A program made the position numbers and the translations under genes. Below the pieces are notes generated by a model, which saw nothing but the letters and a program-made list of their open reading frames with translations, did no database searches and was not told the DNA's origin. A stretch of 64,000 nt of DNA, taken from Alphaproteobacteria bacterium. GTDB taxonomy: Bacteria; Pseudomonadota; Alphaproteobacteria; Micavibrionales; Micavibrionaceae. The stretch covers positions 186,001 to 250,000 of the forward strand of contig JAUHVY010000002.1 in NCBI GenBank assembly GCA_030424975.1. Direction: 5' to 3'. The first letter of the stretch is position 1. Each line of letters opens with the position of its first letter. Positions 31,261 through 37,751 of the stretch are shown in pieces.

Positions 31261-31290
31261 TTGCATAAAGAAATTCTAATATGCTATGTA
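31261..31290 (+). promoter_or_regulatory. Candidate promoter of the 92-codon gene
   Basis: TTGCAT (31261-31266) and TATGTA (31285-31290) are separated by 18 bp. The predicted start is near 31297, giving a leader of only about 25 nt that consists mostly of the GU-rich sequence complementary to the downstream-of-polA RNA motif. Confidence 0.45.
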
Positions 31291-31300
31291 TTGGATACTT

Positions 31301-31314
31301 AATGTGTGTGGGGA
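31301..31314 (+). promoter_or_regulatory. Ribosome-binding region complementary to the repeated RNA motif
   Basis: AATGTGTGTGGGGA occupies positions -21 to -8 relative to ATG 31322 and contains the GGGGA Shine-Dalgarno. Its reverse complement occurs exactly at 37549-37562, and 12-nt versions occur at 37602-37613 and 37643-37654, all inside the predicted structured RNA at 37531-37751. I infer an sRNA pairing site that would block ribosome binding. Confidence 0.55.
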
Positions 31315-31321
31315 AATTATT

Positions 31322-31600
31322 ATGGTATTTAAATCAAGGCGTAACAGCGCCACTGATATTGCTGAGCTGATTGCGCAAGAAAATCAAGAAATTGCGGAAG
31401 ATAAATTGATCGCTTTGTGCGATCAATTACTACTGGACGGCATGAATACCGCCGAAATCATTTCCGGTTTGTTATTTACCATGCACTATGTCGTTTCGAA
31501 TGAGGAAGAAAACGACACCTCCCTTTATTACTCATACCTATTGGAACAATGTAAGTCACAAATCCAAGCTGTTAATGATGAATATTACGAAAAAAAATAA
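31322..31600 (+). CDS. Small cytoplasmic protein of unknown function
   Basis: 92 residues starting at ATG 31322, seven bases after GGGGA. An in-frame ATG at 31286 lies inside the predicted -10 element and is rejected. The protein is helical and acidic: IAELIAQENQEIAEDKLIALCDQLLLDGM, then a hydrophobic helix (EIISGLLFTMHYVV) and a charged tail ending in EKK. I do not recognise the family. It is divergent from galE and followed by rlmB after 90 bp. The leader matches a repeated motif of the putative sRNA downstream of polA, which suggests post-transcriptional control. Confidence 0.65.
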   Translation: MVFKSRRNSATDIAELIAQENQEIAEDKLIALCDQLLLDGMNTAEIISGLLFTMHYVVSNEEENDTSLYYSYLLEQCKSQIQAVNDEYYEKK

Positions 31601-34617: not shown

Positions 34618-37425
34618 ATGAGCGAAGAGAATGAACTGTTTTTAATCGACGGGTCCGGATTTATTTTCCGTGCCTATTTTGCAATGGCCTATTCCCGCAA
34701 AAGCGGCATGACCAACCCCGACGGCATTGAGGTCGGCGCGGTGTATGGTTTTACCAATATGTTGCTCAAGATGCTACGTGATTATCATGCGCCGTATCTG
34801 GCGGTTATTTTCGATGCCGCGCGCGCAAATTTTCGCAATGACATCTACCCCGAATACAAAGCCAATCGCGACGAAACGCCCGAAGACCTGATCCCGCAGT
34901 TCCCGCTCATCCGCGAAGCTACCGAGGCCTTCGACATCCCTGCCCTAGAGGTCGAAGGCTATGAGGCCGATGACCTGATCGCCGCCTATACAAAGCAAGC
35001 TTTAGCGGCAGGAAAAAAAGTGGTGATTGTGTCATCCGATAAAGACCTTATGCAATTGGTGCAACCGGGTGTGCGCATGCTCGACCCGATGAAAGGCAAA
35101 TGGATTTCAGAACCCGAGGTTATAGAAAAATTCGGCGTCACCCCCGATAAGGTCGTTGATGTGCAATCTCTGGCGGGCGATAGCGTGGATAACGTCCCGG
35201 GTGTGCCGGGCATTGGCATTAAAACCGCAGCGCAACTCATTAATGAATACGGCAATTTAGAAGAATTACTGGAGCGCGCAGGCGAGATTAAACAAAACAA
35301 ACGCCGCGAAAAGCTGATTGAACATGCGCAAGATGCCCGTATATCAAAGCAGTTGGTTAAGCTTGATGAAAATGCCCCCGTGCCTGTCCCGCTTGATGAT
35401 TTAAAATCTCATGACCCGGACAAGCCCGAACTTATGGCGTTCTTACAAAAACATGCCTTCAATTCAATCATTAAACGTCTGGGCGGTGAAACCGTCGCAC
35501 CTGCGGCGCCAAGCCATGACACAAAACCGAATGATGACACGCGGATTGAGGAAATCTCTCTGCCGCCGATTGCTGATAATGAATACACACTTATTAATGA
35601 CGCAAAAACCTTGCGCGAATGGGTTGCACAAGCCCACAAGACAGGGGTTCTCGCCATCGACACCGAAACAACGGGACTAACGCCCGCCAAGGCCGCTTTG
35701 GTTGGCATATCAATCGCCCATAGTGCGGGCAAGGCCGCTTATATTCCGCTTGGCCATGCACAAGAAACAGATTTATTCGGTGCGGCCAGCGGAGATGACA
35801 ATATTCCGCAAATGAATAAGAGCGAATGCCTCGAGATTTTAAAACCGTTATTAGAAGACGAATCCGTTATCAAGGTCGGTCATAATATGAAATATGACTG
35901 GCAAATGTTTGCCAAAGAAGGCATCGCCATTACACCATGTGATGATACGATGCTGATATCCTATGTTCTGGATGGCGCAAGCCACAGCCATTCCATGGAT
36001 AATTTATCCGAACTGTATTGCGGGCACGCCCCCATCAAATACGAAGAGGTCGCCGGCAAAGGTAAAAACCAAGTCACCTTTGACAAGGTTGCCATTAAAG
36101 ATGCCCTTACCTATGCTGCAGAAGATGCCGATATTACATTCCGTTTATACCTTATCCTGAAACCGCGTCTCGCGCGTGAAAAGATGGTGCGTGTTTATGA
36201 AACAATTGAACGCCCACTCATTCCGATCATCGCGCAAATGGAACTTGAGGGTATTAAGGTCGACCCGAACACCCTTCGTGATATGAGCGCAGACTTTGCC
36301 GCGAAATTAGAAACATTGGAAAAAGAAATCCATCATCTGGCCGGGCATGAATTTAATGTGGCCTCTCCCAAACAGGTCGGCGAGGTTTTATTCGATGAAA
36401 TGGGATTGCAAGGCGGGAAGAAAACCAAAACAGGTGTCTATTCAACATCCGTTGATGTCCTTGAAAAACTCTCACTGGAGGGACATGAAATTGTACAAAA
36501 GATCCTCGATCATCGTGGGCTTTCGAAGCTGAAATCAACCTATACCGATGCATTACAGGAACAAATAAACCCCGCAACAGGCCGTGTCCATACATCATAT
36601 CACATGACAGGCACCAGTACCGGGCGATTATCATCATCTGATCCTAACTTACAAAACATTCCAATCCGCACCGAAGAGGGGCGAAAAATTCGCGAAGCCT
36701 TCATCGCAAAGGAAGGGCATGTTCTGCTCTCGGTCGATTATTCACAAGTTGAATTACGTCTGGCCGCAGAAATGGCCGGCGTCGAAGCGTTAAAACAAGC
36801 CTTTAAAGATAACATCGATATTCATAGATTAACCGCCTCTCGCGTCTTTGACGTACCACTCGATCAGGTAACACCTGAAATTCGCAGACAGGCAAAGGCC
36901 GTAAATTTCGGCATCATATATGGTATATCCGGTTTCGGACTGGCCAAGCAGCTCGGCTGCCCCGTAGGCGAAGCATCAGAATTCATCAAGCGTTATCTGG
37001 CGCGCTTTCACGAAATTGAATCCTATATGGAAGAAACAAAAGACCTTGCCAAAAAACAGGGCTTCGTCGTCACATTATACGGCCGCAAATGCTTTATTCC
37101 GGGCATCCAAGACAAAAATCAGATGCGCGTGCGCGGTGCAGAGCGCCAAGCCATTAACGCCCCCCTACAAGGAACGGCAGCTGATATCATGAAAATTGCG
37201 ATGGGTCGCATGCCCAAAACATTAGAAAAAGAAAATTTATCTGCAAAAATGCTTCTGCAGGTACATGATGAGCTTATTTTTGAAGTACCCATAGATGAGA
37301 TAGAAAAAACAATTGCAACCGTACGCAAATGCATGGAAAACTCATTTAAAATCAATAACATAGAAATTTCAGTCCCGTTAGAGGCTGAAGCAGGGCACGG
37401 TGATAATTGGGCTGTAGCACATTAG
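34618..37425 (+). CDS. polA: DNA polymerase I
   Basis: 935 residues starting at ATG 34618; the longer open frame runs into the divergent gene. The 5'-3' exonuclease domain (FLIDGSGFIFRAYFA, IVSSDKDLMQLV, GDSVDNVPGVPGIG) is followed by an apparently active proofreading domain with all acidic motifs (IDTETTG, HNMKYDW, YAAEDADIT). The polymerase domain has motif A SVDYSQVELRLAA, motif B RRQAKAVNFGIIYG and motif C LLQVHDELIFEV. It functions in DNA repair and Okazaki-fragment maturation. A terminator hairpin begins at the stop codon. Confidence 0.98.
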   Translation: MSEENELFLIDGSGFIFRAYFAMAYSRKSGMTNPDGIEVGAVYGFTNMLLKMLRDYHAPYLAVIFDAARANFRNDIYPEYKANRDETPEDLIPQFPLIREATEAFDIPALEVEGYEADDLIAAYTKQALAAGKKVVIVSSDKDLMQLVQPGVRMLDPMKGKWISEPEVIEKFGVTPDKVVDVQSLAGDSVDNVPGVPGIGIKTAAQLINEYGNLEELLERAGEIKQNKRREKLIEHAQDARISKQLVKLDENAPVPVPLDDLKSHDPDKPELMAFLQKHAFNSIIKRLGGETVAPAAPSHDTKPNDDTRIEEISLPPIADNEYTLINDAKTLREWVAQAHKTGVLAIDTETTGLTPAKAALVGISIAHSAGKAAYIPLGHAQETDLFGAASGDDNIPQMNKSECLEILKPLLEDESVIKVGHNMKYDWQMFAKEGIAITPCDDTMLISYVLDGASHSHSMDNLSELYCGHAPIKYEEVAGKGKNQVTFDKVAIKDALTYAAEDADITFRLYLILKPRLAREKMVRVYETIERPLIPIIAQMELEGIKVDPNTLRDMSADFAAKLETLEKEIHHLAGHEFNVASPKQVGEVLFDEMGLQGGKKTKTGVYSTSVDVLEKLSLEGHEIVQKILDHRGLSKLKSTYTDALQEQINPATGRVHTSYHMTGTSTGRLSSSDPNLQNIPIRTEEGRKIREAFIAKEGHVLLSVDYSQVELRLAAEMAGVEALKQAFKDNIDIHRLTASRVFDVPLDQVTPEIRRQAKAVNFGIIYGISGFGLAKQLGCPVGEASEFIKRYLARFHEIESYMEETKDLAKKQGFVVTLYGRKCFIPGIQDKNQMRVRGAERQAINAPLQGTAADIMKIAMGRMPKTLEKENLSAKMLLQVHDELIFEVPIDEIEKTIATVRKCMENSFKINNIEISVPLEAEAGHGDNWAVAH

Positions 37426-37524: not shown

Positions 37525-37530
37525 GAGGAC

Positions 37531-37751
37531 ATAACCTAGTTATGTGCATCCCCACACACATTTGCACATTTCATGAGGTTGTGAGCAAAGTGAAATTGGC
37601 CTCCCCACACACAGCCAATTTCCAATAAAAAAATAAATACAGTTCCCCACACACGGAAAGTTGAGGCCGTTCTTAGTTTACTAAGGGCGGTCTCGCTGTA
37701 TTTGCACATAGCTTATGTGAACATAAAAAAAGTGCGCCTATAACGCACTTT
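37531..37751 (+). ncRNA. Putative small regulatory RNA with three TCCCCACACAC motifs
   Basis: Starting from a near-consensus promoter, the RNA folds as follows. A 5' hairpin is ACATAAC/GTTATGT (37529-37545). The first motif is single-stranded (37549-37562). A perfect 9 bp stem GAAATTGGC/GCCAATTTC (37592-37600, 37614-37622) presents the second motif in its 13-nt loop. A domain closed by AAATACAG/CTGTATTT (37635-37642, 37696-37703) holds the third motif (37643-37654) and a long inner hairpin (37663-37694). A CACATA/TATGTG hairpin lies at 37705-37719. The 3' end may use the hairpin at 37729-37751, which is shared with the opposite-strand terminator. The motif is a 12-14 nt complement of the ribosome-binding region at 31301-31314. 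Family unknown. Confidence 0.6.
37724..37751 (-). terminator. Terminator of the 95-codon gene (possibly bidirectional)
   Basis: AAAGTGCG (37729-37736) and CGCACTTT (37744-37751) form an 8 bp stem. On the minus strand the stem is followed by a U run (A run at 37724-37731). The stop codon of the minus-strand gene lies in the loop. The plus-strand T tail is short. Confidence 0.75.

Follow-up and report, generated by a model that had tools for sequence, protein, structure and literature searches.

The question raised by this locus is why the leader of a 92-codon gene should be a perfect complement of a motif that is repeated in a small RNA (sRNA) gene, and whether the two form a regulatory pair. 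Both lie in the window, the whole 64-kb stretch of DNA that was analysed. The features concerned are the following.

31261..31290, + strand: promoter-like TTGCAT-18-TATGTA of the 92-aa gene, read from the sequence
31301..31315, + strand: putative sRNA pairing site overlapping the Shine-Dalgarno sequence (GGGGA), from a sequence search
31322..31600, + strand: 92-aa putative target gene, four predicted helices
37496..37524, + strand: sRNA promoter TTGACA-17-TATAAA, read from the sequence
37531..37705, + strand: small RNA gene with several hairpins, start and end predicted and the 3' end approximate
37542..37569, + strand: hairpin 1, a 7-bp stem with a 14-nt loop (37549-37562), from sequence and fold
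37592..37622, + strand: hairpin 2, a 9-bp stem with its loop at 37601-37613, from sequence and fold
37638..37703, + strand: conserved 3' module, a short stem with the third word copy (37643-37654) and a long terminator-like hairpin, based on an alignment and covariance model R1

The repeated word and its complement

The original prediction held that the leader is complementary over 12-14 nt to the repeated sRNA motif, and an exact search returned the coordinates as claimed. The leader sequence AATGTGTGTGGGGA (31301-31314) complements the hairpin 1 loop (37549-37562) perfectly over its entire 14 nt, and the two further copies in the sRNA over 12 nt. The 14-mer occurs at 37549-37562, and the 12-mer TCCCCACACACA is present at 37602 too. 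In copy 3, the 12-nt match is between GTGTGTGGGGAA of the leader (31304-31315) and TTCCCCACACAC at 37643-37654. The 11-mer TCCCCACACAC is found four times in the 64-kb window (at 37549, 37602 and 37644 on the + strand and at 31304-31314 on the - strand), compared to 0.03 expected from dinucleotide shuffles, and allowing one mismatch adds no site in the window. The leader site is the longest sRNA complement of at least 11 nt in the rest of the window. The two runners-up are 12 nt each and match other parts of the sRNA; the absence of an equally long complement elsewhere in the window, which had also been noticed, was borne out.

The whole genome (2,428,954 bases) contains five sites of the 11-mer and none of the reversed control, the expectation from window composition being 0.72-1.04. 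Three of the sites lie in the sRNA and two at ribosome-binding sites just upstream of start codons. The fifth site is on the other contig; its coding-strand sequence is CGTGTGTGGGGAGAAAATTATG, and the ORF behind it has 30 codons and encodes a hydrophobic peptide. Widespread and random occurrence, which had been named as the outcome that would refute the pairing, is thus not seen for the exact word, and the word marks one sRNA gene in this genome. A chance match was ruled out by the shuffles and the whole-genome counts. With one mismatch there are 18 sites (the five exact ones included) compared to 22 in the reversed control, so near-versions of the word are at background; among the 13 one-mismatch sites inspected, only one (L257) resembles a ribosome-binding site. 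The looser pattern GTGTGGGG N3-14 ATG gave nine rows in this genome against three in the control. Three of the nine were judged to be real ribosome-binding sites, namely those of the 92-aa gene, the 30-codon ORF and an RHH gene, and the remaining rows lie within coding sequence or before very short ORFs. Complements of the sRNA 12 nt long are found at two more leaders in the genome, those of the small hydrophobic ORF and of a histidine kinase.

The predicted small RNA gene and its relatives

The sRNA gene is located between polA, which ends at 37425, and an ORF on the opposite strand. Its predicted start is at about 37531, behind the promoter TTGACA-17-TATAAA, and its predicted length is about 175 nt. 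The 218-nt stretch 37528-37745 folds with -66.2 kcal/mol (z = -5.96 against 200 shuffles), and in the computed fold the three words have unpaired probabilities of 1.0, 1.0 and 0.8. A promoter of its own and a stable structure, both predicted, satisfy one criterion for a trans-acting base-pairing sRNA. Rfam has no match in the window at the gathering threshold and only weak matches to other families at E<=10; on seven loci of relatives it matches tRNAs only.

A scan of a species-genome collection with a 19-nt core gave 16 loci, about two chance matches being expected for a 19-mer by estimate. Fourteen of the loci are on Micavibrio or alphaproteobacterial MAG contigs. The other two, from Kiritimatiellia (L037) and Cytophagales (L043), have one motif match and no TTGACA promoter in context, and were dropped as chance. 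The end of polA was found 105-209 nt before the first word in 13 of the 14 loci; the one without polA is only 839 bases long. The promoter hexamer is TTGACA in 14 of 15 family sequences, the window included, and TTGACG in one. The stems diverge among the family members while the word stays mostly unpaired: over 23 sequences, the mean unpaired probability is 0.82 for the words versus 0.35 for the rest. A value of 0.7 is reached by 36 of 50 words. Several members have the third copy partly in base pairs, and some (L034, L040, L045, L049) have a degenerate second loop.

The covariance model of the 3' module, which was trained partly on the same genomes that were later searched, matches 27 of the 142 genomes of the order. 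Strong matches comprise 11 of the 12 genomes of the genus and extend to two further genera. In the weaker matches L101-L104, a TTGACA promoter is accompanied by one or two copies of CCCCACACA and a terminator-like hairpin; four others (L098, L099, L100, L105) were judged from context to be non-members. An independent pattern requiring two copies of the word found 13 loci in 11 of the 142 genomes and none in the control, including new loci with clear terminators (L170, L171, L172, L173). Hfq is encoded in 23 of 29 genomes, that of the window included.

Two relatives carry a second two-copy locus elsewhere in the genome (L170 and L181 in G032; L180 in G015). In genus g11 (L094-L097), a shorter variant of the 3' module contains TTTCCCACACAG and is accompanied by a TTGACA promoter. 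One genome of this genus that has the variant RNA (G021) lacks the word in its RHH upstream region.

Genes that carry the complement

The 92-aa gene is present in 3 of 58 genomes. The orthologue in G010 is 46% identical in the alignment, and its leader has the same word, which forms a 14-nt perfect complement to that genome's own sRNA; in G004 the perfect complement in the leader is just 7 nt long. Together with the recurrence of the sRNA behind polA, the G010 leader meets the expectation that both partners are conserved. Judged from sequence, the 92-aa gene is one of the less conserved putative targets of the sRNA. Neither Pfam nor NCBIfam assigns the protein to a family. A single-sequence structure model has four helices with a mean pLDDT of 67 and no PDB match at E<=0.001, and it carries no weight in the argument. 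A simple promoter scan did not list 31261..31290. The three orthologues (window 31261-31290, L032, L033) have a common promoter-like TTGCA(T/C)-18-TATGTA.

The pattern TGTGTGGGG N3-12 ATG gave 37 rows in the 12 genomes of the genus against 13 in the control (hand sums). Inspection of 30 loci revealed a recurrent hydrophobic protein of 29-34 aa in 11 genomes, an RHH protein in four, and the 92-aa gene in two (G000 and G010). An alignment search with the small protein in 56 genomes found 22 orthologues at E<=4e-6, and the leader of 21 of them contains GTGTGGGG; G002 has TGTGGGGGG instead. The word itself had led to eleven of these orthologues, and ten of the other eleven have it too. Seven genomes had the small-ORF word without a covariance-model match, and the two-copy pattern rescued only G035; the six with no sRNA by either search are G019, G023, G025, G026, G031 and G033. 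A hydrophobic protein of ~30-50 aa (MLxxLLMLVLAVNGGLYxGTILYS) adjoins mraZ in many genomes of the family (L142, L139-L160). Pfam gave no match for one member of the small hydrophobic family and NCBIfam none for another.

RHH_4 proteins are found in 51 of 56 genomes, and 30 of these 51 were inspected. The region tested was the 140 nt upstream of the conserved domain and not a mapped leader; a word was counted if it was at least 8 nt long or the AGG variant. It is present in 12 of the 14 genomes labelled sRNA-positive versus 1 of the 15 labelled negative, and in that one (G012) it lies away from the start codon. Among those labelled positive were G020 and G021. G035 was labelled negative, but a two-copy sRNA was found there later; the Fisher value is 2.2e-5 with the original labels and 1.2e-4 once G035 is counted as positive. 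G002, which is 74% complete and has the word but in which no sRNA was found, was excluded from the count. Since the genomes share ancestry, these values make the evidence look more independent than it is. In G008 the complement in the RHH leader is only 7 nt long. A second RHH-like protein in G004 (L251, 201 onward) has TGTGTGGGG before its start codon.

The three copies of the word do not fit the same mRNA best. In the genome of the window, the best complement of loop 1 is the 92-aa leader (14 nt). That of loop 2 is TGTGTGGGGAGG in the leader of a PAS histidine kinase (12 nt), the TTG start of which is uncertain, and that of copy 3 is CGTGTGTGGGGA in the leader of the small hydrophobic ORF (12 nt). 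The RHH leader has a complement of 9 nt. Because the copies differ at their edges and best fit three different mRNAs, the sRNA looks like a multi-target regulator. The predicted sRNA-target pair is supported, but the notion of an RNA dedicated to the 92-aa mRNA alone is not. Conserved complementarity at the translation starts of unlinked genes satisfies a further criterion for a trans-acting sRNA.

Loop and leader have also changed together. Two genomes with the loop CCCCTCACAC (G004, G007) carry GTGTGTGAGG in their RHH leaders; their first loop holds CCCCTCACACA and their RHH leader contains TGTGTGTGAGG. These leaders match their own and each other's RNA over 11 nt, and the rest over 7-10 nt. 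In G006, with TTTATTTCCACAC in its first loop and TGTGGAAATAAA in its RHH leader, the match is 12 nt with its own RNA versus 8-10 nt with others. Over 12 genomes, the RHH leader matches its own sRNA over a mean of 10.42 nt versus 9.38 nt for others, a difference reached in 9 of 20000 permutations. Since related genomes are not independent, this preference probably represents two or three events. The small-ORF leader has no preference for its own sRNA (10.85 versus 11.08 nt; 19193 of 20000 permutations reach this), because it is nearly invariant. Shuffle z-scores of duplex energies, calculated without accessibility, were modest (-0.5 to -5.0). Energies of this kind discriminated poorly, and the length of the perfect complement was therefore used.

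Proposed action and possible regulon

The favoured reading, held with good though not complete confidence, is that the stretch at about 37531-37705 encodes a trans-acting sRNA with several hairpins, which would prevent the translation of a few targets by pairing at their Shine-Dalgarno sequence. The sequences, their conservation, the predicted exposure of the loops, the recurrence of the word at start sites and the matched changes are shown by the analysis; transcription, repression, dependence on Hfq and the biological role are inferred. Two hairpins and the terminator-like 3' module would each expose the word UCCCCACACAC, which would pair with GUGUGUGGGGA, a sequence that overlaps the Shine-Dalgarno region of a few mRNAs. 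These putative targets are the 92-aa gene at 31322, the 30-aa hydrophobic protein beside mraZ, the RHH_4 regulator and probably the PAS histidine kinase. Pairing, perhaps with the help of Hfq, would block ribosome entry and thereby repress translation. In NfeR1 and LhrC, a C-rich seed exposed in a loop of the sRNA is reported to cover the Shine-Dalgarno sequence and repress translation (PMC10746234, PMC4132741). The window sRNA probably switches its target genes off, and there are no transcript, RNA or protein data.

It is unlikely that pairing of the sRNA with these leaders activates the mRNAs or makes them more stable. With an mRNA start near 31296, the word in the 92-aa leader has an unpaired probability of 0.69, and the leader may thus be partly folded around it and be remodelled by pairing. 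However, in the recurrent targets inspected pairing covers the Shine-Dalgarno sequence itself, which normally blocks ribosomes.

There is also a small chance of a generic RNA directed against the many GGGG-type ribosome-binding sites, with no dedicated regulon. CCCC is able to pair with any GGGG Shine-Dalgarno sequence, and alpha-r14 uses an anti-Shine-Dalgarno word (PMC10746234). The conserved targets, however, share GTGTGT, which matches ACACAC and has no Shine-Dalgarno role, and the GGGG class comprises only 2 of the 47 mechanically called window ORFs of at least 150 aa.

In its proposed action the window sRNA resembles alpha-r14/NfeR1 of Sinorhizobium meliloti, for which three hairpins, the same anti-Shine-Dalgarno word left unpaired on highly divergent stems, and pairing at translation initiation regions are described (PMC10746234, PMC3927594). 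The window sRNA satisfies the criterion of several hairpins with one anti-Shine-Dalgarno loop on divergent stems, but its word is UCCCCACACAC or variants, whereas that of alpha-r14 is CCUCCUCCC. Because the CCUCCUCCC criterion failed, the sRNA was not filed under alpha-r14. Unlike alpha-r14, it is mostly behind polA and has targets with a long custom complement. It also has no Rfam match, and alpha-r14 should be among the families in Rfam.

Repeated similar loops on divergent stems, as found here, are typical of protein-titrating RNAs. The sRNA might accordingly be a CsrB-like decoy, the loops of which bind a protein, with the complementarity of the leaders being incidental. This is very improbable. 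RNAs of the CsrB/RsmY type have GGA in their hairpin loops, but the loops here are CCCCACACAC, a C/A-rich word that fails the criterion. Moreover, several gene families with no relation to each other carry the complement at their ribosome-binding sites, and in G004 and G007 the changed form occurs in loop and leader alike. A DNA-binding protein recognising TGTGTGGGGA near promoters can hardly be the explanation, although MraZ, the boxes of which contain TGGG, was considered and mraZ is found in 17 of the 22 small-ORF loci, because the word stands a few nucleotides before the start codon, has the sense orientation on the mRNAs and the antisense one in the sRNA, and is also found at genes in other parts of the genomes.

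Two other systems resemble the proposed sRNA in part. In LhrC1-5 of Listeria monocytogenes, a single sRNA offers three redundant C-rich sites for blocking a Shine-Dalgarno sequence (PMC4132741). LhrC differs in belonging to another phylum, in its UCCC-type CU-rich word, in its five gene copies and in having one site in a single-stranded stretch. The merRNA and attack-phase sRNAs of Bdellovibrio are likewise small RNAs of a predator with a possible link to c-di-GMP and lifestyle (PMC3627812). The merRNA contains a c-di-GMP riboswitch, whereas the window has no Rfam riboswitch match.

In a non-exhaustive search of the open-licence PMC literature, no published account of an sRNA like this one in Micavibrio-type bacteria came up. 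It is apparently undescribed, and occurs in relatives of the predatory Micavibrio, a genus with an epibiotic predator lifestyle. A tentative extension, more doubtful than not, is that Micavibrio-like predators use a private RNA code, in which the Shine-Dalgarno sequence of a dedicated regulon is respelled as GUGUGUGGGGA and each loop of the sRNA is tuned to a different mRNA, as a switch between search and attached growth on prey. The regulon would then contain the small protein beside mraZ, the RHH regulator, and chemotaxis, type IV pilus and c-di-GMP genes. A predatory lifestyle switch remains a hypothesis resting on few annotations. Both partners are conserved, the seed is 9-14 nt long, and signalling, chemotaxis and pilus genes are among the candidate targets. 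Should the model hold, the post-transcriptional control of an epibiotic predator would become directly testable, with a natural case of an sRNA and its target changing together.

Across the order, the pattern TGTGTGGGGA N3-12 ATG gave 100 rows versus 18 in the control for the family to which the window belongs (104 genomes), and 2 versus 4 for other families (38 genomes; hand counts). Of the 100 rows, seven are second rows for one site, a few represent sRNA loops read antisense, and many are not located at a gene. The word precedes a protein of G005 in which Pfam identifies EAL and cyclic-nucleotide-binding domains, and a similar protein in G003 (L231). Candidates in G026, from sequence and Pfam, are a CheA-like protein (Hpt and kinase dimer domains), a PilT-like ATPase (T2SSE) and a T2SSF protein; the first 110 aa of the ATPase match the NCBIfam pilT model below its whole-protein cut-off. 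Single-domain response regulators (CheY) with the word are found in G035 and G089, Pfam having been run on that of G035. The EAL, CheA, CheY and PilT genes have the complement at the ribosome-binding site in one or two genomes each. Several small families of unknown function are further candidates.

Many single matches to the ribosome-binding-site patterns, L050, L056, L069, L071 and L182 among them, are not counted as targets, as they seem to fall within genes, on the strand opposite a gene or ahead of very short ORFs. Similar unknown proteins of 80-101 aa in three genomes of different genera (L196, L197, L246) have the word at the ribosome-binding site; the one searched has no match in Pfam or NCBIfam. 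Similar proteins of 76-79 aa, one of which was searched without a Pfam match, also have the word at the ribosome-binding site in G026 and G032 (L215, L225).
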